Part shown: in pieces, positions 101 through 17,964 of the stretch
Layout: every line of letters begins with the position of its first letter
How positions within the stretch are numbered: the first letter of the stretch is position 1
Notes under the pieces: model-generated
Told to the model about the DNA's origin: nothing
Seen by the model: only the letters and a program-made list of their open reading frames with translations
Databases searched by the model: none
Virus record (IMG/VR): IMGVR_UViG_3300013126_000164
Span: 1-29,846 of that record
Length of the DNA: 29,846 nt
From: a virus
Strand: one strand, 5' to 3'
Made by a program: the position numbers and the translations under genes

Positions 101-535
101 ATGCCATTAATTAAAGTAGGAGCAGTTGAAAAGAATTACGACGTTTTACCAGAAGGTAAATATGAGGTATTTGTAGATAAGTTTGATGATGTCCAAGTCG
201 TTGACGGAATTGAAGTTTCACGTATTATGTTTACTATTCGCAAGGACGTTGATAGCGTTAATGGTGGTCGTAAAGTGTTTACGAACATTAAATCAAGTGA
301 TAACTTTGCTTGGTTAGTCAATGGTTTATCTAAAGCGGTTGGTATTCCCGTTGATAGTGCTTATGAAACCTTAAGTGATTTCTTAAATGATATTAAAGGT
401 AAAACTTTAGTCGTTAAAGTTCGTCATAAACCAAACCCAAAAGACGCCACTAAACCTTATGTGAATATTACGGATTTCTTCCCAACCACAAAAGGTGCCG
501 TTAGTTTAGCAAAAGCAGACACAGAAATTATTTAA
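101..535 (+). CDS. DUF669-like single-stranded DNA-binding protein
   Basis: The 144-residue product starts with a conserved-looking segment (LPEGKYEVFVDKFDDVQV) followed by FTIRKDV, GRKVFTNI and a C-terminal VNITDFFP strand. This order of beta-strand blocks is what I know from phage DUF669 proteins, small OB-fold-like proteins thought to bind single-stranded DNA next to phage recombination and replication genes. The C-terminus is not the classic acidic DDDIPF tip of bacterial SSB. The ATG is preceded by AAAGGAGG at 84-91. It is first of the recognisable replication genes and lies directly upstream of the primase-helicase. Family call is by eye; the role is inferred from family and context. 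Confidence 0.65.
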   Translation: MPLIKVGAVEKNYDVLPEGKYEVFVDKFDDVQVVDGIEVSRIMFTIRKDVDSVNGGRKVFTNIKSSDNFAWLVNGLSKAVGIPVDSAYETLSDFLNDIKGKTLVVKVRHKPNPKDATKPYVNITDFFPTTKGAVSLAKADTEII

Positions 536-567: not shown

Positions 568-3351
568 TTGATTATCTTTGAACACTTCTTTAAAGAGGTA
601 GATTTTAACTCCGCCAATGGTAGCGGGGAGGTGGCAGTTGCCTGCCCCTTTCCGCATACTACAAATGATGGTAAACGATACTACGAAACAAACCCATCGG
701 CACATATTAACACCGAAAAATCTTTGTTTCATTGTAAGGTTTGTGGGGAAAAGCATAGTGAGGCAAGTTTTTTAGTTTCACAAACTAATCTTCCCTATGG
801 TAAAGCGGTTGAGATTATTGACGAATTAACCAACCATAGTATTGTAGCAAATTGGGAAGTTGCCGTAAACGCCCTCAAGACAAATAGCATTACTCAAGCG
901 TTAATTAAGAAACTAAAGTTCTCTAAAGAGGCGGTTGATTTTTTACGCATTGGTTTTGAAGGCGAAGGTATTTCTTATCCAGTTTATGTTTATAGTCAAT
1001 TAATGGACGTGCGAAAGTATAGACCAGGTCAACAACCTAAGGTTATGAGCCGTTCGGGGGCAAAAGCGGGATATATTATCCCAGATTTGTCCTATATGAA
1101 AGACCTTGAAACCGTTTACATTTGTGCGGGTGAGAAGGATATGACCATTGCGAGAAGTAATGGTTTTGATGCTTTTACACTTACGGGCGGAGAAATGGCA
1201 ATCCCATACACCTACGGGTATGCTTTCCGTGGTAAGAAAGTTTATATTTTATATGATAACGATAAGACGGGTTTAGAAGGTGCTGCGAAAGTGGGTCTTT
1301 TCCTTAAGGAGCAAGGTGCTATCCCATATGTCGTGACGGGACATCACGCAACTTGTGTTGAAAAAGGTGAAGACATTTGGGACTTCTTCGGTAAGTATAA
1401 TAAAACCGCAGACGACCTAAAGGCGATTATTGACGCCACTGAACCTATGAGTTCCGAGCAACTAAAGAAGGAGTTTGAAAAAGAATATCCTTCAATTCCT
1501 TTAGAAAATGCCGTTGAACCACAATATCGTAATAAGTATGTGACGGCGTTAGTCCAAGTTGTGGGCGTTTACAACAATACTTTTGGTATTCCCGAAGTAA
1601 TTGAAGTTGAAAAACTAACCCCAACGGATACAAGACCACAAGTTAACGTTATCCCTATTGGCACAAAGAAACTATTTACGGTAGACGATACTAACATTGA
1701 GGACGTGTTATACCTAATGGATAGCAACCTGAAGGAAGACCAAGTCCGTAAGAACATTTTAGGTTTGGCAAAAATTCCGTCAACCGAAGTTTCTATTGCG
1801 ATTAAATACAAAGCACACGCTACGGTCTATAAATCTACGGTCGTTAACTATGGGGCAAGTAAATCTGCTCCTATTGAAATTGACGTCTATTCTAAACAAC
1901 CTTTAGAGAACGGAAAGAAATACACTATAACATTTAAACCCGTTCAACACCCTCTTAGACAACAAGAAATCGTTTTAATTGCTAAGCGTGTTCAAGGTAT
2001 GGATAATACCTTAGAAAACTTTGAGTTAAATGAAGACGTCAAGGGTAGTTTAAAGGTTTTCCAAGTCGGTAAAGACGTTAATGAAGGTATGGAAATGCTT
2101 TTCCAATACGACAAAGGTTATGTCGGTGGAGAGGCAGATAGAAACATTACCCAGACCGTAGACCTTGTTTATAATACACCTTTACACATTAAAGTAGGTA
2201 AGTCGGTTATCCGTGGCACCTTAGACGCATTTATGGTGGGAGAAACCCGCACGGGTAAGTCGCATACCTCTAAAGTCAAGCGAGAACTATACGATATGGG
2301 TAGCGTCATTAACCTTGGTACCACTACGGTCGCAGGTTTAATCGGCGGTACTAATAAGGCGACGAACAAAACTAAAATTGGTTTATTACCACGAGAACAT
2401 AAAAACCTTGTGATTATGGAAGAGTTTTCCTCTATGAAGGACAATGCTTTCATTAAATCAATGACTGAAATACGCTCCTCTAATGAAGTTCGTATTGTCC
2501 GTGTAGATACGGATATTCGTGTGCCTTGCCAATTACGTATGCTAACTATCTCAAACCCTAAATCACGTCAAGGTGGTGCGGGTCGTTCAATGAAGTCATA
2601 CCCCAATGGGGTAGAAGTTTTGTTAGAACTTATTGATAGTCCCGAAGACATTGCTCGTTATGACTTCTTTACCTTAGTTCCTGAACCTGAGGAATACATC
2701 TCCTTTATGGATAAGGACTATGAAAAATTGCCAGAAATATCCTATAGAAACCGTGTTCGTTGGGCGTGGACACGTAGACCCGAACAAATTATTATGGATA
2801 CAGATACTCAAAAGTATTTGTGGCAAAAGTCGGTTGATTTAAACCGAGAATACAATACACACGTTCGTTTATTTGGTACTGAGGCGTGGCAAAAGATTGC
2901 CCGCATTGCCGTCGCAAGTGCGATTATGCTTGTCTCTACAGACACTACGTTTGAAAATGTGGTCGTGACAAAGCAACACATTGACTGGGCGGTTAATTTC
3001 TTAATTAGAATATACGACAATAATGTGTTTAAACTAAGACAATTCGTTAATGAACAACGCAAATATAGCGAAGTTGACGAAGAATTAGTAAAAGAATTAC
3101 AAGAACTTTATCTCAACAACGCCACCTTATTTAACTTTTTAGAGATGAGTAGTGGTGTGCCAAGAGCAGTTCTAAGAGACGTTTCGGGTAAGAGCAATGA
3201 GGATTTCTCCGTTATCCTAAACGAAATGTCCCGATTATACTTGTTTAGATGGTCTAGTAGTTTAGTTATCCCATCTGAGCGGTTAAGAAAAGGTCTATCT
3301 AAAATTAATAGAAATATCCGTATGAAAGGAAGTGGTAATAGTGTTCTATAG
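568..3351 (+). CDS. Primase-helicase: zinc/TOPRIM primase joined to MCM-like AAA+ helicase
   Basis: The 927-residue product probably makes primers and unwinds DNA at the fork. Residues 26-59 hold a zinc site (C26, H30, C56, C59) like DnaG/T7 gp4. Residues ~182-250 form a TOPRIM fold with GEKD (E189) and YDND (D230, D232). Residues ~320-550 are beta-rich, where an MCM N-terminal domain would lie. The ATPase has Walker A GETRTGKS (558-565), a TTVAGL block like the MCM SSAAGL motif, Walker B LVIMEEF (614-620), sensor-1 asparagine in ISNPK (N663) and an arginine-finger-like ARYD (R697). The last ~70 residues look like a winged helix. This is not the RecA/DnaB ATPase usual for phage primase-helicases. 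The TTG start follows GGTGAG (558-563) and an in-frame stop lies directly upstream, so it cannot extend. Confidence 0.8.
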   Translation: MIIFEHFFKEVDFNSANGSGEVAVACPFPHTTNDGKRYYETNPSAHINTEKSLFHCKVCGEKHSEASFLVSQTNLPYGKAVEIIDELTNHSIVANWEVAVNALKTNSITQALIKKLKFSKEAVDFLRIGFEGEGISYPVYVYSQLMDVRKYRPGQQPKVMSRSGAKAGYIIPDLSYMKDLETVYICAGEKDMTIARSNGFDAFTLTGGEMAIPYTYGYAFRGKKVYILYDNDKTGLEGAAKVGLFLKEQGAIPYVVTGHHATCVEKGEDIWDFFGKYNKTADDLKAIIDATEPMSSEQLKKEFEKEYPSIPLENAVEPQYRNKYVTALVQVVGVYNNTFGIPEVIEVEKLTPTDTRPQVNVIPIGTKKLFTVDDTNIEDVLYLMDSNLKEDQVRKNILGLAKIPSTEVSIAIKYKAHATVYKSTVVNYGASKSAPIEIDVYSKQPLENGKKYTITFKPVQHPLRQQEIVLIAKRVQGMDNTLENFELNEDVKGSLKVFQVGKDVNEGMEMLFQYDKGYVGGEADRNITQTVDLVYNTPLHIKVGKSVIRGTLDAFMVGETRTGKSHTSKVKRELYDMGSVINLGTTTVAGLIGGTNKATNKTKIGLLPREHKNLVIMEEFSSMKDNAFIKSMTEIRSSNEVRIVRVDTDIRVPCQLRMLTISNPKSRQGGAGRSMKSYPNGVEVLLELIDSPEDIARYDFFTLVPEPEEYISFMDKDYEKLPEISYRNRVRWAWTRRPEQIIMDTDTQKYLWQKSVDLNREYNTHVRLFGTEAWQKIARIAVASAIMLVSTDTTFENVVVTKQHIDWAVNFLIRIYDNNVFKLRQFVNEQRKYSEVDEELVKELQELYLNNATLFNFLEMSSGVPRAVLRDVSGKSNEDFSVILNEMSRLYLFRWSSSLVIPSERLRKGLSKINRNIRMKGSGNSVL

Positions 3352-5251
3352 ACAAATGGTTGCGGACGCACAACAACTACTCGTTGACCTTAAAAAGTCA
3401 AGCAAAGAGTGGGTTGCGTTTGATACTGAAACCACGGGTCTGCACCTAAAAGCAGACAAACCCTTCCTTATTACCTTAACATTTGACGACCAAAGTCGTT
3501 CTATTGAGGTTGGTAAGTGGCATCCCGCCGTCTTACAAGAAGTGTTTAATGAACTAAAGAACTTTAAGTATGTCGTAGGTCATAACATTAAGTTTGATTT
3601 ACATATGCTTGAAAACATTGGCGTTAAGTATTCGGCAAATAATTTGACTGACACAATGATACTTGCTCGTCTTGCCTTAGATACGGACGAAGTATTTACT
3701 TTAGCACTCAAGTCATTAGCGACTAAGTACATTGACGGGGCGGCAGCAGACGACCAAAAGGTTGTTAAATCTGCTTTATTAAGAATTAAGAAAAGCACAA
3801 CTATTCAAGAACCAACATATAAAGACGTCTATGAACACGACGAATATCGTCAAGCAATGATTGAGTATGCCTATAACGATACTGAAATTACACTACAACT
3901 TGCTAAAAAACTAATAGATGTTGTGTATGCGAGAAAACAAGAAGACACACTTAAGTTAGAAAACGCACTTATCCTACCCCTATTCCGTATGGAACGTGTG
4001 GGTTTAAAGGTTGACCGTGAGTATTTAACTGAAAGAAAGAAGTTCTTTGAGGAGTATATCTCTGGAAAACGTGCGGAACTACATAAGTTAACGGGTGAAA
4101 CCTTTAACGTAGGTCAACATAAGAACATTAAAGAGTGGTTTAACAAGAACGGTATTCAATTAGCGTCAAGCGACGATAGTGCTATGGAATATGTGATTAA
4201 AACCGCAGAAGACCTACCTAAAACCGTTGCTAAGATTATCCAAGAATTACGTAGTTTAGAGAAATGGTATAGCACTTATATCGTCCGTATGCTTGAAAAA
4301 AGTGAGTTTGACGGACGTGCCTACACCCAATTCAATGCCAATTCGGCAATTACGGGTCGTTTAAGTAGCGATTTCCACCAATTTCCTAAGTATGCTCTAT
4401 TAAATGAACAAGGTGAGGAGATGTTTCACCCCCGTCGTATGGTTATCCCAACTAAAAACGGGTACGAAACACTTGCTTTCTTAGATTATTCACAAATAGA
4501 GCTACGTGTTCAAGCAAACTACACCTACGAAATTAGTGGTGGCGACTTGAATATGTGCCGTGCATATATGCCTCATCAATGCGTAGACGCTAATGGTGTG
4601 GTCTTTGACCCGCTATTACACAAGAACGAAATTACTACAAAGTCTTGGTTTACACAAGAAAGTGGGAAAGTGTGGAAACCCACCGACCTTCACTCCGCTA
4701 CAACCAAAGAGGCGTTCCCAGAAGTAGATGAAAGCAGCGACGAGTTTAAGAAACTGCGTGGTCTTGGCAAAGCAACTAACTTCGCAAAGAACTACGGAGC
4801 AACAAAGAACGCTCTTATAGAGCAGTTTGGGTTTGAAGAAAGCATTGCTATCAAGTTAGATAAAGCATATTACCAAGCGTTCCCCAAAATCTTAGACTAC
4901 CAAAACTTAGTCCGCAAGATTTACTACCAACGTGGATACGTTAAGAATATGTATAGTCGTAGATACTATATGACTGATAAGCGATTTGTATACCGCCTTT
5001 ATAACTACTTAGTTCAAGGGTCGTGTGCCGATATGCTTAAATCTAAGATTATAGAGATAGATAACTTGTTATTGCCTTACAAGTCAAGGTTTCAAATGAA
5101 TATCCACGACGAATTATCGTTTGAGATATACGAAGGCGAAGAATTCTTAGTTAATAAAATTAAAGAAATTATGGAAAACGTTCCCCGTATGATAATTCCA
5201 GTTGTCGCCGAATTGGAGACAACTCAAACAAACTGGGAGGACAAGGAGTAA
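3341..5251 (+). CDS. Family A DNA polymerase with 3'-5' exonuclease domain
   Basis: Replicative phage polymerase of about 636 residues, close to T7-type length, with no 5'-3' exonuclease domain. The proofreading domain shows AFDTETTG (D28, E30), HNIKFDLHML and the YNDTEITLQL motif III. The polymerase domain shows motif A FLDYSQIELRVQ (D382), motif B with K477 and YG at 485 in the O-helix (GLGKATNFAKNYG) and motif C NIHDELSFE (H589, D590). About 55 residues are inserted after motif A. I chose GTG 3341 over GTG 3332 because AGGAAG at 3327-3332 sits about 8 bases before 3341 but overlaps 3332; ATG 3356 is a less likely alternative. It overlaps the primase-helicase gene by 11 bases. Confidence 0.93.
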   Translation: MFYRQMVADAQQLLVDLKKSSKEWVAFDTETTGLHLKADKPFLITLTFDDQSRSIEVGKWHPAVLQEVFNELKNFKYVVGHNIKFDLHMLENIGVKYSANNLTDTMILARLALDTDEVFTLALKSLATKYIDGAAADDQKVVKSALLRIKKSTTIQEPTYKDVYEHDEYRQAMIEYAYNDTEITLQLAKKLIDVVYARKQEDTLKLENALILPLFRMERVGLKVDREYLTERKKFFEEYISGKRAELHKLTGETFNVGQHKNIKEWFNKNGIQLASSDDSAMEYVIKTAEDLPKTVAKIIQELRSLEKWYSTYIVRMLEKSEFDGRAYTQFNANSAITGRLSSDFHQFPKYALLNEQGEEMFHPRRMVIPTKNGYETLAFLDYSQIELRVQANYTYEISGGDLNMCRAYMPHQCVDANGVVFDPLLHKNEITTKSWFTQESGKVWKPTDLHSATTKEAFPEVDESSDEFKKLRGLGKATNFAKNYGATKNALIEQFGFEESIAIKLDKAYYQAFPKILDYQNLVRKIYYQRGYVKNMYSRRYYMTDKRFVYRLYNYLVQGSCADMLKSKIIEIDNLLLPYKSRFQMNIHDELSFEIYEGEEFLVNKIKEIMENVPRMIIPVVAELETTQTNWEDKE

Positions 5252-7423: not shown

Positions 7424-7675
7424 ATGGAAAAATTAAAACAACAACTTAAAATGCTAATAGCCACTCCAAAGGGGTGGCTTTCTTGGCTTATAGCGAACGT
7501 TATAACCTCTTTACCGTGGGCTATACCGTTAATCTACGGCTTTGTTTTTAAGGATAACAACGGTTATGTGATTGCAGGGTTTGTATGGGCATTCGTAATG
7601 CTACCTATTACCCCGTTTTGGATGTTAAACGTTATTATAGCAGTCTTCTTACGTAATAAAATTATTAAGGGGTAG
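7424..7675 (+). CDS. Small two-helix membrane protein, 83 aa
   Basis: Two hydrophobic segments (about residues 19-41 and 47-74) are joined by a short polar turn FKDNNGY; both ends are basic, suggesting an inner-membrane hairpin. Function unknown; a holin-like role is possible from topology only. No Shine-Dalgarno sequence precedes the ATG, which follows a pyrimidine run right after a long hairpin, so it may be weakly or conditionally translated. A terminator-like hairpin lies inside its 5' end (7459-7484), and its stop codon is part of the acceptor arm of the tRNA-like element. Confidence 0.5.
   Translation: MEKLKQQLKMLIATPKGWLSWLIANVITSLPWAIPLIYGFVFKDNNGYVIAGFVWAFVMLPITPFWMLNVIIAVFLRNKIIKG
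7459..7484 (+). terminator. Intrinsic-terminator-like hairpin inside the small membrane-protein ORF
   Basis: AGCCACTCC pairs with GGGGTGGCT (one G-U pair) around an AAA loop, followed by TTCTT. The stem is GC-rich and compact and could end part of the early rightward transcription. It encodes the ATPKGWL stretch, so it may also be a coding coincidence. Confidence 0.45.
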
Positions 7676-7747
7676 TCGGGTAAGTTAACCTACAACCTTA
7701 ACTGAGTGTAGGTTAAAACGTGGGTTCAACTCCCACCTACTCCACCA
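7669..7747 (+). tRNA. tRNA-like element with encoded CCA and abnormal anticodon arm
   Basis: GGGGTAG (7669-7675) pairs with CTACTCC (7737-7743), followed by discriminator A and CCA (7745-7747). The T-arm is canonical: GTGGG-TTCAACT-CCCAC (7720-7736). A weak D-arm can be drawn (GGGT/ACCT around a 6-base loop lacking the GG pair). The centre does not give a normal 5-bp stem with 7-base loop. Instead TTAACCTACA and TGTAGGTTAA form a perfect 10-bp stem around the 12-base loop ACCTTAACTGAG. No anticodon has both U33 and a purine at 37; UAA is the least bad reading. It is either a degenerate tRNA or a tRNA mimic. Total length is 79 bases. Confidence 0.55.
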
Positions 7748-7800: not shown

Positions 7801-7818
7801 TTTCGATTATAATCGAAA
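7801..7818. promoter_or_regulatory. Perfect 18-bp palindrome, operator-like, copy 1
   Basis: TTTCGATTATAATCGAAA is its own reverse complement and has a TATAAT box at 7808-7813 (and the same on the other strand). A dimeric repressor bound here would cover a -10 element. The binding protein is unknown. Confidence 0.6.
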
Positions 7819-7823
7819 TTGAT

Positions 7824-7853
7824 TGAGAAAATTACACAAACTTCGACTATAAT
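7824..7853 (+). promoter_or_regulatory. Candidate promoter overlapping palindrome copy 2
   Basis: TTGAGA (7824-7829), an 18-base spacer and TATAAT (7848-7853) give a good sigma-A-type match. The -10 box lies in the middle of the second palindrome. Transcription would start near 7860 and meet the bidirectional terminator at 7920-7944, with no ORF in between. Confidence 0.5.
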
Positions 7854-7858
7854 CGAAA
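7841..7858. promoter_or_regulatory. Near-perfect palindrome, operator-like, copy 2
   Basis: CTTCGACTATAATCGAAA matches copy 1 at 16 of 18 positions and lies exactly 40 bp further on, about four helical turns, so two bound dimers could face the same side of the DNA. Confidence 0.6.
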
Positions 7859-7859
7859 T

Positions 7860-7944
7860 GTTATCCTATTAGCAATTTAGGTTGTTTTATACCTATTATT
7901 GCCAACATATTAGCATAAGAAAAGAGCCCCGTAGGGCTCTTTTT
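7860..7944 (+). ncRNA. Possible short RNA between promoter and terminator
   Basis: A transcript from the 7824-7853 promoter would be about 85 bases, ending at the GAGCCC/GGGCTC terminator hairpin. It has no usable ORF. Because it runs against the end of the late operon, it could also only serve to block read-through. Support is limited to promoter and terminator shape. Confidence 0.3.
7920..7944. terminator. Bidirectional intrinsic terminator between converging operons
   Basis: AAAAGAGCCC and GGGCTCTTTT form a perfect 10-bp stem around CGTA. The A- and T-flanks make it a terminator on both strands: it ends the leftward virion operon (the stop codon of the 1093-aa gene lies in its flank) and any rightward transcript. 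Confidence 0.88.
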
Positions 7945-10900
7945 ATTTGGGTTTGTACTGATAACCTTGACGTTTTTTTAGTTCGTCTAAGGTTGGTAGT
8001 CTTTCGCCCGTTTGTTGTTCGTATAACTTTCTTAGATTTCTTAATTCTTCTAACCGTTGATATAGGTTAGTTAATTGAATTTCCGACAACTTCTTGGTTT
8101 GTGTTAGACCTAAAGCCGAGTTCAAGTCATCTGCAAAATCACCTAAATTTTGTTTACCGACAGCAGTATCTACAAGACTTAGTAATCCAGATACAAGTCT
8201 TCTTGGGTTTCGTAGACCTAAGTCATCCGCAATCTTTTGAATAACTGGGTCTCCAGATAGATAAGCCTCTCCATCTTTACCTCTAATTTCGGATAAAACA
8301 CCAGTTCCCTTTTCCATACGATTAGTTTGACCTGGGAAATCTTTTAAAGGGGCTCCTGTGAAGCTATCTCTACCCGTACCAAGTTCAAGAGCAATTTTTG
8401 CAGGAACCGTTAGAGAAGTAACCCCACGGCTGAATGGTTTTTCAATAAATTCTACAAAATCTGAGACTGGTAGGTTTAACTTTAAAAAGTTAATACTATC
8501 TTTGTCGTCTCTATTAATAAGCATTGGGATTGGTAACCACATATTACTTTTAATATAATCTGGAAGTTCGTTGATGTCCATATCGGTCATCCCTTCTGTC
8601 CAGTGTTTATAACTTCTTAGCAACTTAGCATATTGTTGTGGATTTTTAACAATGTTCTTAGATTGGAATATAAGGTTGTTCTTCATAAACGTATAGAACG
8701 GAATAGCACGTTTCATTACGTCTCTTTCAAACGGAGTAAGTAGAGTATAATCGAATAATGCTTCCCGTACTTGTTTGAAAGCTGCGGTTGAACTACCTGT
8801 CTTCTTTAATGACCAATTATACAAGGCTATACGTTGTATATCGTCCATTTCTTCAGCTAAGTTAAAGTTAGTTTCTACAACTTTTTGAAGAATGTTTTTG
8901 TCTTTAAAGTTTTTGCCTTGACCTAAGCGTTCAATCATTGCCTTAACGTCTTCTAAGTCTCGTGCTCCACGGTGACCCGTAAGAACACCACTCTTAGCAA
9001 TTTCGTCAAAACTATTTAAGAATAGTTTATCTGCTTGTTTCAACGCTTGTTCGCCAAATTCGGCACGTAATTTAGCAAGTCGTTTATACTTCATTAGGTC
9101 TTTAATTGCTTGGGCTTGATAACGTATAATATCTACCGTATTCATACCAACAAGATACATATTAGATGCGTTACCAAAGAAGTTTCTACCGTGGAAACCT
9201 GGGCTTAATAATGTAAATCCTTTCCATTGAGCCATAAGTTTATCATAGTACTCAATTAATTTAGGAACTTCTCTATAGGCGTTATCTGCGTTTTTTAGAA
9301 TATTATATGCAGATTTTTGCATTGCAACGGTACCATCACCCGCAGCACCAACAGTTGCTAAGAAAGTATCATTAAATGCCTTTTGCATTTCTGGTGGTAG
9401 GTTTTTGAATAAGTTAGAGAACTCATCTTTAAATGATTTAATAGCTTTAAAACCATTTGGAAGTTGTTCTTGAATTTCTTTGATAGTTTTACCTTTCATT
9501 GAAATAAAGAACTCTGGAGCACCATCTACTTTTACATATTTACCTGTAAAATCGGGTTCAACACCTAAGAACATCTTAGTTAAATTCGTTTGTGTATATT
9601 GCTTTTGAGCAACATTAACTAAGTCTTGTACAGATAGTAAGGCACTTTCGTTAAATAAGTCGCCTTCAATACCATATAAGTCTTTTAAAGCGGCGTTAAT
9701 TTCGCCAGTCGTACCTTCATAAGTACGAGCGGCAAGGTCTGAATGACCTGGACGGATGTAATCTGTAACATAATATCTTGAATTTTTAAACAATTCTTCT
9801 GCTTGTGCGGTAGGAACACGACGTAAATATTCTACATTACTTGCAAATGTCTTACCACCAACATTAAACTCACCCATTTGTTCTAAGAACTTACGGGTTT
9901 CCGCTTGAATATTTCTTAATTTGTCTGTAGCATTTTTTAATGTATCACCGTGTTTGGCAATCGCTTCCATTGTTTGAGGAAGTAGTTTTCTTTTACCAAT
10001 ATCTAAAACAGCGTTTAAAAGGTTATCCCCTTGCGTAGTACTAAGAGTTTCAATTATCTTAGCAAACTCAGCACTGTCTCCGATAAACTCTAAACCAACA
10101 GAACCTTTTTGACCAACTCGAGTTAATAAAACATCTTTACCGATAATCTTATTGGCTTGTTCAATGTAGCCTCTTAGTTTTTGATATGCTGCTGGATTGT
10201 CTATTGCGTTTAAACCTGGGATTGCTTTTGAAGCAATTTTACCAGTGGCTTGAGCCCCACGTCTTGCTACGTCATCCGCAAATTTAGGAATGATGTTGTT
10301 CATAATAATTTTACCGTCTGGTAAAACTACACTCCAGGCTTTAGTTGCAGCATCTTGAACTAAGTTTGCACCGTTTTGAATGATGTCTGAAGCAATACGG
10401 TCTGCATCCTTAATACCACTTTTTCTTAGAATATCGCTAACATCGTTAATAGCAATCTTTAAGTTGTCTGCCGTTTGACCAGCTTCTGCACTAATCTTTT
10501 TAATAGCACGAATTTCGTCATCGGTTAAACCTTTAGTAGCATTAAAAATATAACCTGCATCATCAGCAAATTTTGCAACACCTTTAACAAAGCCTTCGAC
10601 TGCTTCTGCGGCTGGTTTTAATTTAGTACTTGCTTTGGCGGCATCAAGTAAAGAACCACCAACTTTTGCAACGGCAGAACCACCAACACCTAATACCTTC
10701 TTTAATGGCTTAGTAATAACGCCAAAACCAAGATAGGTTGTGGGGTCTGAAGCAATATCTAAACCTACGTCAAGAACAAAGTTTCCGATTTCGTCAGCAA
10801 TACCTTCTCCTTCTTTAAACTGTAAGAAGTTCTTATCACCCGTAAGGTTTTGAAGAGCTTCTTTTGTAGATAATTTTTCTTTACCTGCTAAACCATCCCA

Positions 10901-11224
10901 AGCTGCTTCTAATACATTTCTTCTATCGCTATCACCTAAAGAACTTAAAACGTTTGAAACTACTTGACGAGGTCTATCTAACACTTCAAGAATGTCCATA
11001 AGAACATCTTGTTTAGGTGTTAGATTTAATGCCTTCTCAAGTATGTTTCTTTTATCCAGGTCTTTTTGTGGAAGGTTAGTATCTACACCGACCCCACTAA
11101 ACCTCTTTTCAAGATTAGATACTTGCCCTTGAATATAAGCATTAGTATCTTTTGTTGCAGGTTTAAAAAGATTAACTGCTGTTGGTTTATACTTATAGTT
11201 ATATTTTGGTTTTTTGATTGCCAT
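7943..11224 (-). CDS. Large putative internal virion (DNA ejection) protein, 1093 aa
   Basis: Last and largest gene of the leftward virion operon. It is rich in helix-forming Ala, Lys and Leu, with Gly-rich amphipathic stretches near residues 165-260. Around 670 it has SPGFHGRNFFGN and around 830-850 FERDVMKRAIPFYTFMKNN. I know this pair from very large phage proteins carrying LPD-type (large polyvalent protein) domains or annotated as internal virion proteins. The likely role is to sit in the capsid and be ejected with DNA. No peptidase or muramidase motif was recognised. There is no clear Shine-Dalgarno; the ATG lies 4 bases after the upstream stop, so translation is probably coupled. The function is inferred from position and size. 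Confidence 0.6.
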   Translation of the reverse strand: MAIKKPKYNYKYKPTAVNLFKPATKDTNAYIQGQVSNLEKRFSGVGVDTNLPQKDLDKRNILEKALNLTPKQDVLMDILEVLDRPRQVVSNVLSSLGDSDRRNVLEAAWDGLAGKEKLSTKEALQNLTGDKNFLQFKEGEGIADEIGNFVLDVGLDIASDPTTYLGFGVITKPLKKVLGVGGSAVAKVGGSLLDAAKASTKLKPAAEAVEGFVKGVAKFADDAGYIFNATKGLTDDEIRAIKKISAEAGQTADNLKIAINDVSDILRKSGIKDADRIASDIIQNGANLVQDAATKAWSVVLPDGKIIMNNIIPKFADDVARRGAQATGKIASKAIPGLNAIDNPAAYQKLRGYIEQANKIIGKDVLLTRVGQKGSVGLEFIGDSAEFAKIIETLSTTQGDNLLNAVLDIGKRKLLPQTMEAIAKHGDTLKNATDKLRNIQAETRKFLEQMGEFNVGGKTFASNVEYLRRVPTAQAEELFKNSRYYVTDYIRPGHSDLAARTYEGTTGEINAALKDLYGIEGDLFNESALLSVQDLVNVAQKQYTQTNLTKMFLGVEPDFTGKYVKVDGAPEFFISMKGKTIKEIQEQLPNGFKAIKSFKDEFSNLFKNLPPEMQKAFNDTFLATVGAAGDGTVAMQKSAYNILKNADNAYREVPKLIEYYDKLMAQWKGFTLLSPGFHGRNFFGNASNMYLVGMNTVDIIRYQAQAIKDLMKYKRLAKLRAEFGEQALKQADKLFLNSFDEIAKSGVLTGHRGARDLEDVKAMIERLGQGKNFKDKNILQKVVETNFNLAEEMDDIQRIALYNWSLKKTGSSTAAFKQVREALFDYTLLTPFERDVMKRAIPFYTFMKNNLIFQSKNIVKNPQQYAKLLRSYKHWTEGMTDMDINELPDYIKSNMWLPIPMLINRDDKDSINFLKLNLPVSDFVEFIEKPFSRGVTSLTVPAKIALELGTGRDSFTGAPLKDFPGQTNRMEKGTGVLSEIRGKDGEAYLSGDPVIQKIADDLGLRNPRRLVSGLLSLVDTAVGKQNLGDFADDLNSALGLTQTKKLSEIQLTNLYQRLEELRNLRKLYEQQTGERLPTLDELKKRQGYQYKPK

Positions 11225-15009: not shown

Positions 15010-17964
15010 CTAAATTTCGGAATTATAACTTTCAAAAACCATTTTTTGAACGCCACCTTTATTTTCATAATAAACATCAACATTAGTATTTCCTAAAAAC
15101 ACATAATTTGATGTATCACCGACTAAACAAGAAGCACTCGTGACTGTCTGCGTGTTAAAACTATAAACAACTTTTTCGCCAAACGCTTTTTCAACAATAA
15201 TACCAGGGTAAATGCTTGAAAATCCACCATCGGTTAAAGTGAAAAAAACACGAATTTGTTTTGAATTGTTAGGAACTTTTACAACATATGTTCTAAAAGA
15301 ACCTTCTGCCGCTTTTGTAATTATTATTAAATCATTGTTATCAATCTGAGCATTTGTTAAAACATATTCATAAATTCCACCAACCAAATTAAAGGTCGGG
15401 TTAGTTAGCGTTAAGGTAGTATTAGGGTTTGGGTTTGCCCAAACAAGTCCATTTAAATTTTTGGTTAAAACATATCCATTAAGACCAACGCTATTGGTTC
15501 CATCTTTAATTTGTGTTGGTTTCATCGCACCATCATCATCAATGGTTAAAATTACATTACTATTATCTACAATAGGTGCGACATCATTAACTTTTCTATA
15601 ACTCAATCTTAACTGAGCATCGGTTTCGTTTGCTTTTAATACATTTTGAAAAACAAAACTTTCCCTTTGTCTTTTTTCTACTGGCGGTCCGCCTGCTAAA
15701 CTAAAAGGAGTAGGAACAATATATTCATCAATAAAATCAGTAGTAGAACCAATTAAAAACATTTTGGTTCCATTAGGATTAAACACAACACCAGTTGTCA
15801 CGTTTTGTTGAACTGCTAACGTTGTAGTTATTGTGGCACTTGATAATAACCAAGCGGTTGATAATGTATATTCCACTACATTATCTGAACTTGTTCCAAC
15901 CACAAACATTTTTGTTCCAGTGGGGTTAAACCACAATCCAGTAGGTGTAGCATCAGCAGCGGAAATGCCAAAAGTATTTGTTTGTGTCCAACTGGTAACG
16001 TCATACGCAGACGTAAGAGTTAATTCTCTTATAATATCATCGGTGCTATCAACAATATAAACTTTTAATCCATCAGGTTTAAAAAACATTTCTTGATATG
16101 TTTTACTACTTGGCAATGTGGATGTTGAAGACGTTGTAAGAGTAAGGGTTGATATATTCCAAGCGGTTGATAAAGTATATTTGTTAATCTTTCTTGCGGT
16201 GTTATCTAAAACAAACAAGGTTAAACCATTATCAGTAATATAAAGTCCTCTTATAGAAGGAATAGCAGGATTGGTAATACTTGTTGTAGAAGTTATACTT
16301 GTATTTGAAACATCAAAAGCAGTCGTTAAAGCAATTGTTAAAATGTTGCTTCCATCTGCCACAAAAGCAGTTAACCCATCGGGTTTGAAAAATATGTTTT
16401 GTGGTGCTGACCCCAATGCAACATTACTGCTTCTTAAATAAGTCGCGGGTGAAGTAGGCACAACTTCCCAAGTATTACCCTCGATGGCAAGTTTTGGACT
16501 ATTGAAAAACTGTCCGCCCGCAGTAGCGTTTTGGGGTTCTTTTATATTAAAATCTTCAAACGAAAAATTGTAAAATGGTATTAACTCATAACCTCCACCA
16601 ACTGGGTCATATAATCGGTATAACTTAAAGGCAACATCAGGTGTGTAATAAATATAATTTTTAATTACACCATTTGATGCAACCATTGCCCAGTTTGCCA
16701 GAGATTGAGAACTTCCATTGTTTAATTTTTTCCAAATGCTTAAACTATCACCAATATCACCAAACGCTAAAATATGTTTTCCACCAGTTGTAAAAGGAAC
16801 GTTAGGAAACTGATTTTCATTATTGACTTCATAAATTTGCGTGCTAAATAAATCAATAATGTTTTGACTTTTTCTTTCTACTACATTTAAAGCGGTTTGA
16901 GTAGCAGTTGAAACGGGTTTATTTGCATCGCTTGTATTGTTAACGTTGCTTAAACCTACCTGTGCCTGCGTAACTGAGTGTGGGTTATCGGTTCTTGATG
17001 TGTGAGCATCTAAAGCCGTTTGAGTGGCAGTTGAAATTGGTTTATTAGCATCAGAAGTATTATCAGCATTACCCAAACCAACTTGTGCTTTTGTAATTGA
17101 GTGAGGGTTGTTTGTAGCAGAAACGTGAGCATAAGCGGTAGAAACTTTATTCACTTCTGCGGCAGTATAGTCGTTTTCACTCAAACCCTTACCAACAATT
17201 TTATCCACCTTGCCGTTCAATGCGCTAACTAAATCAGCACCTTCAGGATATTGGTTAAAAATTTGTAGAATTTCACCGATTGTATCAACAACATTGTCTC
17301 CGTCATTGGTATTTAATAAAGCGACTAAGTTGTCTAAACTAACTTTATCAGCGGCAGACATTAGACCTGCTAAAGATTGTGTAGCATTACCTAACGCCGT
17401 TTTAAATTCGTTTAAAGTAATACTGTCTTCTAAATCAATTCCTATAATGGTTTGGTTTTTATTTACCTTACCGTCTAATTCTACATCCACGTAATTTGTT
17501 AAATTGCCTACTTCAGTTACCACATAAGCGGTTGTTGCAATTTGTGTAGTATTGGTTGACGCCGTAGCAGTTGGTGCAGTAGGAGTTCCTGTTAATGCAG
17601 GAGATGTAAACATTGTTGCCTTTGATTCGTTTGTAACGTTTCCTAAACCCACTTGTGCTTTTGTAACGGCGTGGGGGTTAGAAGTGTTATTGATATGAGT
17701 ATTAACATAAGTTAAATCAGCTTTTGTATTATCTAAACCCAAAACATCCGTTTCTAACTGAACAATATCAGCTTCTGCAGTCGTCATACGACCTTCTAAA
17801 GCCGTAATATCACCTTCTGCAGTTGTAATTCTTGTTTCGTGGTCAATTAAAGTGTCATCGTTTGTATTTAACGCAGTCGTAATTTGATTACGTTCATAAA
17901 CATAATCTCGTGCGTTAATGATTTCACCATTTCGCCACGTTCTTAATCCTGTTACTTTTGCCAT
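15010..17964 (-). CDS. Tail fibre / receptor-binding protein with beta-propeller-like region
   Basis: The 984-residue product likely binds the host surface. The N-terminus (~20-100) includes heptads (TAEGDITALEGRMTTAEADI) typical of a trimeric coiled coil. Three phage-fibre repeats with NPHxxTKAQVGLGNV follow, plus the TSPALTGTPTAPTA motif. Residues ~360-510 are a mixed beta domain. Residues ~510-756 hold five repeats of ~45-50 residues of the form FxPDGxxxFVxDxxxxxIxxYTLSTAW, which look like beta-propeller blades. The last ~225 residues are beta-rich. GAGGT precedes the ATG, which overlaps the upstream stop (TAATG). The middle and end are the likely host-range part. Confidence 0.85.
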   Translation of the reverse strand: MAKVTGLRTWRNGEIINARDYVYERNQITTALNTNDDTLIDHETRITTAEGDITALEGRMTTAEADIVQLETDVLGLDNTKADLTYVNTHINNTSNPHAVTKAQVGLGNVTNESKATMFTSPALTGTPTAPTATASTNTTQIATTAYVVTEVGNLTNYVDVELDGKVNKNQTIIGIDLEDSITLNEFKTALGNATQSLAGLMSAADKVSLDNLVALLNTNDGDNVVDTIGEILQIFNQYPEGADLVSALNGKVDKIVGKGLSENDYTAAEVNKVSTAYAHVSATNNPHSITKAQVGLGNADNTSDANKPISTATQTALDAHTSRTDNPHSVTQAQVGLSNVNNTSDANKPVSTATQTALNVVERKSQNIIDLFSTQIYEVNNENQFPNVPFTTGGKHILAFGDIGDSLSIWKKLNNGSSQSLANWAMVASNGVIKNYIYYTPDVAFKLYRLYDPVGGGYELIPFYNFSFEDFNIKEPQNATAGGQFFNSPKLAIEGNTWEVVPTSPATYLRSSNVALGSAPQNIFFKPDGLTAFVADGSNILTIALTTAFDVSNTSITSTTSITNPAIPSIRGLYITDNGLTLFVLDNTARKINKYTLSTAWNISTLTLTTSSTSTLPSSKTYQEMFFKPDGLKVYIVDSTDDIIRELTLTSAYDVTSWTQTNTFGISAADATPTGLWFNPTGTKMFVVGTSSDNVVEYTLSTAWLLSSATITTTLAVQQNVTTGVVFNPNGTKMFLIGSTTDFIDEYIVPTPFSLAGGPPVEKRQRESFVFQNVLKANETDAQLRLSYRKVNDVAPIVDNSNVILTIDDDGAMKPTQIKDGTNSVGLNGYVLTKNLNGLVWANPNPNTTLTLTNPTFNLVGGIYEYVLTNAQIDNNDLIIITKAAEGSFRTYVVKVPNNSKQIRVFFTLTDGGFSSIYPGIIVEKAFGEKVVYSFNTQTVTSASCLVGDTSNYVFLGNTNVDVYYENKGGVQKMVFESYNSEI
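15695..16435 (-). repeat. Five degenerate coding repeats: propeller-like blades in the tail fibre
   Basis: The repeats share an FxPDG or FNPxGTKMF turn, then a V(D/G)xxxD strand and a YTLSTAW-type strand. Examples are FFKPDGLKVYIVDSTDD and WFNPTGTKMFVVGTSSDN. Spacing is about 140-150 bases per unit. Repeats are clear at protein level and weak in DNA. Confidence 0.7.
16920..17690 (-). repeat. Tail-fibre NPH-type repeats
   Basis: Three units centred near 17660, 17090 and 16970 encode NPHAVTKAQVGLGNV, NPHSITKAQVGLGNA and NPHSVTQAQVGLSNV. The two later units are followed by NTSDANKPxSTATQTAL. They match the common phage fibre repeat and are probable sites of homologous exchange. Confidence 0.75.

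Follow-up and report, generated by a model that had tools for sequence, protein, structure and literature searches.

Gene content and order at the locus

The stretch of DNA analysed here (hereafter the window) is a 29,846-base virus record from IMG/VR. Its principal feature is a forward-strand reading frame, open throughout, which encodes the 927-residue protein described below (Table 1). The genes in this part of the window follow one another in the order SSB (single-strand DNA-binding protein), primase-helicase, PolA (family A DNA polymerase), and then a resolvase-like protein, a deoxynucleoside kinase and a RecE-like exonuclease. The DUF669 SSB also adjoins the homologous gene in the cultured phages SV21 and API480, and in 71 related loci PolA follows the family gene, in no case preceding it. 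The probable start of PolA in the window is the ATG at 3356; the listed GTG at 3332 is in the same frame.

Table 1. Features of the primase-helicase gene and its immediate neighbours, in positions of the window; residue numbers refer to the primase-helicase.
Feature	Position	Strand	Remarks
Single-strand DNA-binding protein (DUF669, PHROG 378)	101..535	+	directly upstream of primase-helicase gene
TOPRIM-MCM primase-helicase	568..3351	+	927 aa, TTG start, no internal stop; relatives found
CHC2 zinc ribbon	619..792	+	residues ~18-75; ligands C26, H30, C56, C59
DnaG-type RNA polymerase domain with TOPRIM core	838..1467	+	residues ~91-300; E189, D230, D232, D269
MCM N-tier	1474..2007	+	residues ~303-480; structural alignment and hhalign
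MCM AAA+ motor	2008..3057	+	residues ~481-830; profile, Foldseek, VIA-align, hhalign
Walker A GETRTGKS	2239..2262	+	residues 558-565; K564 68/68
Helix-2 insert	2326..2394	+	helix 588-592, strands 593-596 and 601-604, helix 606-609 (DSSP of model); hhalign with MCM h2i
Walker B LVIMEEFS	2407..2430	+	E618-E619; E619 68/68
Pre-sensor-1 beta-hairpin	2485..2526	+	strands 640-644 and 649-653 (DSSP of model); basic residue at 645 in 65/68
Sensor 1 ISNPK	2548..2562	+	residues 661-665; N663 68/68
Arginine finger ARYD	2653..2664	+	residues 696-699; R697 68/68
C-terminal winged helix	3073..3321	+	residues ~836-918; H-H-H-E-E DSSP pattern 866-902
Family A DNA polymerase with 3′-5′ exonuclease (PolA)	3356..5251	+	directly downstream of primase-helicase gene

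Several further features were recorded elsewhere in the window. An Rfam tRNA model matches at 7669-7744 (+) with 42.4 bits, where ARAGORN makes no call; the match falls in the gap where the replication genes and the structural genes converge. At 7801-7858 and 7919-7944, also between the convergent gene blocks, lie two imperfect palindromes (TTCGATTATAATCGAAAT, with 40 nt between copies) and a strong terminator-like hairpin. Among the structural genes, the ORF at 7943-11224 (-) encodes 1093 amino acids with no Pfam or PHROG match, and a tail-fibre-like ORF (15010-17964) contains an imperfect 123-nt (41-aa) repeat at 16884-17109 (-). The right end of the contig (29466-29846) carries C-rich and 38-nt tandem repeats.

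Domain architecture of the primase-helicase

The N-terminal third of the protein is a DnaG-type primase, as judged from profile and model comparisons, with a CHC2 zinc ribbon, a TOPRIM core and intact catalytic residues; primer synthesis is a predicted activity. With the window protein alone as query, CHC2 is the sole Pfam match in this third, and Zn_ribbon_DnaG scores 23.1 bits (E 6.6e-5), just below its cut-off of 24.9, but the same model is matched by 48/51 family members (E<=0.01). A profile built from 68 full-length relatives, which are 21-77% identical to the window protein, finds the zinc and polymerase domains of Aquifex DnaG (2au3) among PDB sequences at E 2.2e-26 over 291 positions (profile positions 8-298), followed by more DnaG chains and then T7 gp4. 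A model of residues 1-306 (pLDDT 94.4) superposes on 2au3 with Z 20.0 (208 residues, rmsd 2.9) and on other DnaG proteins and T7 gp4 with Z 17-18, as opposed to Z <=9.5 for TOPRIM proteins that are not primases; the zinc ribbon matches the fold of 1d0q at Z 8.5. The far better superposition on DnaG identifies this region as a DnaG-type primase and not just as any TOPRIM protein.

The zinc site and TOPRIM motifs originally proposed for the N-terminus are thus confirmed, and their residues persist across the family. Among the 68 full-length relatives the zinc ligands are conserved in 68 (C26), 67 (H30), 68 (C56) and 62 (C59), and the TOPRIM acids in 67 (E189) or all 68 (D230, D232 and D269), so that the motifs are no chance resemblance and the catalytic residues have not been lost in relatives.

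Three independent tests, by profile, by profile-profile alignment and by structure, agree in identifying the C-terminal part as an MCM. Searched against PDB sequences, the family profile retrieves dozens of MCM chains (best E 1e-11), and each of the 60 matches listed is either an MCM or a primase chain. Aligned by hhalign with six archaeal plasmid or virus MCMs, it gives a probability of 99.2 and E 8.6e-20 over 580 collinear columns, which place window residues 252-897 on archaeal MCM 26-641, up to the C-terminal winged helix. Finally, the best 50 Foldseek matches of the full-length model (pLDDT 89.8) are all MCM, and VIA-align superposes the model on SsoPfMCM with Z 28.3 over 453 residues. 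Since this superposition covers model residues 303-824, the match takes in the N-tier as well as the AAA+ motor. On these grounds residues ~303-898 are a collinear MCM, comprising N-tier, AAA+ domain and C-terminal winged helix, for which hexamer formation and DNA unwinding are predicted.

The individual motifs are in keeping with this assignment. The TTVAGL block (residues 586-591), ISNPK and ARYD occur in MCM order, as originally described, and K564, E619, N663 and R697 are conserved in 68/68 relatives. The terminal winged helix was likewise correctly recognised (DSSP pattern at 866-902, hhalign to 897), and a pre-sensor hairpin, suggested as a feature to look for, is found at 640-653 in both model and alignment. 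Two reservations held against MCM membership carry no weight: the GKS of Walker A, in place of the typical AKS, also occurs as GTGKS in the aligned archaeal plasmid and virus MCMs, and the E-E of Walker B is a variant seen in 26/68 relatives, with D-E in the other 42. Sensor-2 candidates are K776 (68/68) and R779 (65/68), in a region where the alignment is ambiguous. The zinc site of the N-tier is absent from the window protein, which has no cysteine at residues 330-405, and at least three of the cysteines are kept in 44/68 relatives; on this comparison the site is lost within the family, and we do not count the loss against MCM membership.

Single-model Pfam searches are less discriminating. 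The window protein scores 15.8 bits against PF00493 (MCM), below the cut-off of 23.3 that several relatives pass, and a close 14.7 bits against Mg_chelatase. Because PF00493 also matches in each of the 14 control genomes, those of bacteria among them, a bare match was rejected as proof and the profile-profile and structural comparisons were used instead. Across 51 members at E<=0.01, MCM is matched by 43 and Mg_chelatase by 18, with the better best E for MCM. There is no match to the D5/SF3 Pfam family in the window (E<=0.1) or among the 51 members (E<=0.01), and none to an SF4 motor of the RecA/DnaB type in the window protein.

The core of the original prediction, a bacterial-type primase on an archaeal/eukaryotic-type helicase in one protein, is therefore supported at all three levels of comparison. 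HMM-HMM search and structure prediction, proposed with it as checks, assign the N-terminal third to DnaG/TOPRIM and the remainder to MCM, and not to DnaB, D5/SF3 or another AAA+ clade. Beyond that prediction, we find that an MCM N-tier is present, that the family is widespread and that AEP primases, too, are found on this MCM lineage.

Distribution of the family and exchange of primases

A single-sequence search for related loci returned none, and an alignment query was needed. With it, relatives were found in at least 348 viral contigs, as well as nine in bacterial MAG contigs. Cultured carriers include the Paenibacillus phages SV21 and API480, Weizmannia phage Youna2, Bacillus phages BSP7/BSTP, Arthrobacter phage Wollypog and the Microbacterium Krampusvirus; the metagenomic phage ctIqW946 carries a TOPRIM-MCM protein too. 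The pairing had been considered uncommon, a view that does not hold for a family of this spread. The SV21 and API480 proteins share 37% identity with the window protein over their full length, and the cultured and ctIqW946 homologues match Pfam CHC2 and/or Toprim, plus MCM. In the databases these homologues are labelled 'DNA primase', 'DNA primase/helicase', 'DNA primase small subunit' or 'DNA directed DNA polymerase'. In API480 the homologue is gp47 (predicted 105 kDa), which its authors name DNA primase; mass spectrometry detected it in gel bands 1-3, and it was most abundant in band 1 (PMC6937236); the gene is thus expressed, and its product runs in the top gel slices. In Youna2 (L003) and BSP7 (L004) the TOPRIM-MCM gene is followed by genes for QueC, QueD, QueE and GTP cyclohydrolase I, and these queuosine/7-deazaguanine genes suggest that the phage DNA is modified.

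Of 178 family ORFs, 141 encode TOPRIM and MCM in one frame, and another 13 are of the AEP-MCM kind. In four cases the TOPRIM and MCM parts are encoded by neighbouring ORFs, and in five the helicase ORF shows no detectable TOPRIM; the remainder are cut by contig ends or come from duplicate contigs. The four split loci are L100, L139, L163 and L169, where Rfam detects no intron; a gene split, a frameshift or an insertion are candidate causes. The TOPRIM-less helicase ORFs are L046:5920-8040, L112:3883-5715, L121:4419-6677, L129:4491-6677 and L175:4803-6677, with L112 included on account of an upstream stop, though one count took it as cut. In L046 the zinc ribbon is kept and runs directly into the MCM N-tier, and L121 and L129 retain a remnant resembling DnaG; the neighbouring ORFs that were checked yielded no replacement primase. 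As TOPRIM can be absent or encoded next door, the covalent link is not absolutely required.

An AEP primase (DNA_primase_S plus DNA_primase_lrg-like) stands ahead of a homologous MCM at 13 loci, namely vB_BboS-125 (L007), L101-L110, L144 and L165. The window protein matches PHROG 18685 at E 1.2e-28 through its helicase part only (residues 447-844), and this PHROG corresponds end to end to the AEP-MCM protein of L101 (2316 bits); listed as being of 'unknown function', it is an AEP-MCM primase-helicase. In tblastn searches the L101 protein finds the TOPRIM-MCM phage helicases at 1e-38 to 1e-56 and archaeal MCMs only near 1e-5, and its AEP half as query matches other phage AEPs. A helicase tree places the phage MCMs of both kinds apart from archaeal MCMs (SH-aLRT 100), with AEP and TOPRIM forms interleaved.

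The sequence comparisons thus support at least one exchange of unrelated primases, AEP and DnaG/TOPRIM, on a single lineage of phage MCM. The helicase tree calls for two changes, but the AU test does not reject one AEP clade (p = 0.22), and the claim is accordingly limited to 'at least one' exchange in place of two or more independent AEP exchanges.

Primase-MCM fusions as such were known from AEP proteins, both BcMCM and the plasmid PrimQH proteins (PMC4538821, PMC5862659). The phage AEP-MCM loci compared here as 'BcMCM-type' (PHROG 18685; vB_BboS-125 AYP68415), a set to which BcMCM itself may belong, share with TOPRIM-MCM a homologous MCM half and a single polypeptide with the primase first, but their primase is an unrelated AEP where TOPRIM-MCM has CHC2-TOPRIM. 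The PrimQH proteins are likewise primase-MCM fusions of bacterial mobile elements, but with AEP and not TOPRIM, and the passages of their description consulted here mention no TOPRIM-MCM (Kazlauskas 2018, PMC5862659). No description of TOPRIM-MCM was found in the open full-text literature, a body that lacks key surveys such as the 2016 one on the replication proteins of dsDNA viruses; their accession numbers suggest that the cultured members were deposited later than that survey. TOPRIM-MCM is thus a real and widespread pairing within the phage primase-helicase fusions, and apparently an undescribed one.

Predicted role at the replication fork

Gene content points to a replicative role. DnaB_C is matched in 0/44 relative records, an absence that weighs less in the many that are fragments, and Toprim_2 is matched in 41/44, once each and always in the primase-helicase gene; taken together, these counts make the protein most likely the phage's only replicative primase-helicase. 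PolA occurs in 32/45 records and PolIII alpha in 9/45, never both in one record. Our main reading, to which we assign a probability of roughly 0.85, is that of a replicative primase-helicase of the phage's own, in which a DnaG-type primase is fused N-terminally to a complete MCM, with hexamer, polarity and priming predicted by homology and modelling.

MCM rings travel 3′-to-5′ on the leading-strand template with the N-tier at the fork, as in archaeal MCM and CMG, and Pol alpha-primase in CMG sits on the N-tier side, where the primase of TOPRIM-MCM is likewise placed. By analogy, the MCM half would form a hexamer carrying six primase domains on its N-tier and moving 3′-to-5′ along the leading-strand template. 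The excluded lagging strand would emerge at the N-tier and be primed there with RNA; it is because the primase is joined to the tier where this template is excluded that it should act on the excluded strand. PolA, or PolIII alpha in other members, would then extend the primers.

Such a protein would fill the role of T7 gp4 with a motor of opposite polarity. T7 gp4 and Twinkle also have a DnaG-type primase (CHC2 plus TOPRIM in T7) N-terminal to a ring helicase, but their motor is RecA-type SF4 and moves 5′-to-3′, whereas that of TOPRIM-MCM is an AAA+ MCM expected to move 3′-to-5′. T7 gp4 accordingly primes the strand that has already passed through its ring, and TOPRIM-MCM is expected to prime the excluded, not the threaded, strand. 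The complete MCM chain with its N-tier is shared with archaeal and eukaryotic MCMs, but in comparison with these and with CMG the primase is bacterial-type and covalently fused, and the ring is presumably a homohexamer without the CMG partners.

Of the other readings, the best placed, though an unlikely one, is that the protein is a replication initiator or repair helicase, serving origin melting or restart while host DnaB-DnaG drives the fork. In its favour, the winged helix at the MCM C-terminus could serve to bind an origin, an SF2 helicase is also encoded by these phages, and DnaB is supplied by the host. Set against this are the position of the gene between SSB and the replicative PolA, the conservation of both catalytic centres, the pointlessness of a fused primase if host DnaB were used and the fact that, in an unsystematic look at the annotated neighbourhoods, no DnaB loader was noticed. 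Still less probable is that the TOPRIM half is a nuclease or structural relic and another factor primes. Its outright loss in the five TOPRIM-less relatives would fit such a relic, but the family has retained the acids of TOPRIM, the zinc site of CHC2 and the N-terminal RPD subdomain that is specific to DnaG, and the RPD as a whole fits DnaG structures at Z 15-20, as against <=9.5 for other TOPRIM proteins. We give very little credence to the idea that 'MCM' over-reads a P-loop shared with another AAA+ protein (Mg-chelatase/ComM type), D5/SF3 or SF4: the near-equal MCM and Mg_chelatase scores of the window protein and the unspecific PF00493 matches lend it something, but the MCM chains found by the family profile, the members' preference for MCM, the collinearity of N-tier, AAA+ and winged helix, the lack of any D5/SF3 match and DnaB_C at 0/44 led us to drop all these identities.

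We also incline, with some reserve, to a wider proposition: one phage MCM lineage would have swapped its fused primase between AEP and DnaG-TOPRIM, perhaps more than once, and the TOPRIM form, with its 3′-to-5′ motor, would prime the strand excluded from the ring and not the threaded one, an unreported geometry that would be common in phages.

The family amounts to a natural experiment on primase-helicase coupling, in that one helicase is found with two primases that arose independently (AEP or DnaG) and its relatives pair with either of two families of polymerase (PolA or PolIII alpha); on both counts the coupling looks geometric and not lineage-specific. It also bears on the mutual replacement of non-homologous replication enzymes. 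TOPRIM-MCM may also offer a compact, single-chain, homo-oligomeric system for asking how a 3′-to-5′ MCM passes the lagging strand to a primase, a handover that is difficult to study on its own in the CMG replisome with its many subunits. Finally, hundreds of phage genes now labelled 'DNA primase', 'DNA primase small subunit' or 'DNA directed DNA polymerase' should be re-annotated as TOPRIM-MCM primase-helicases.
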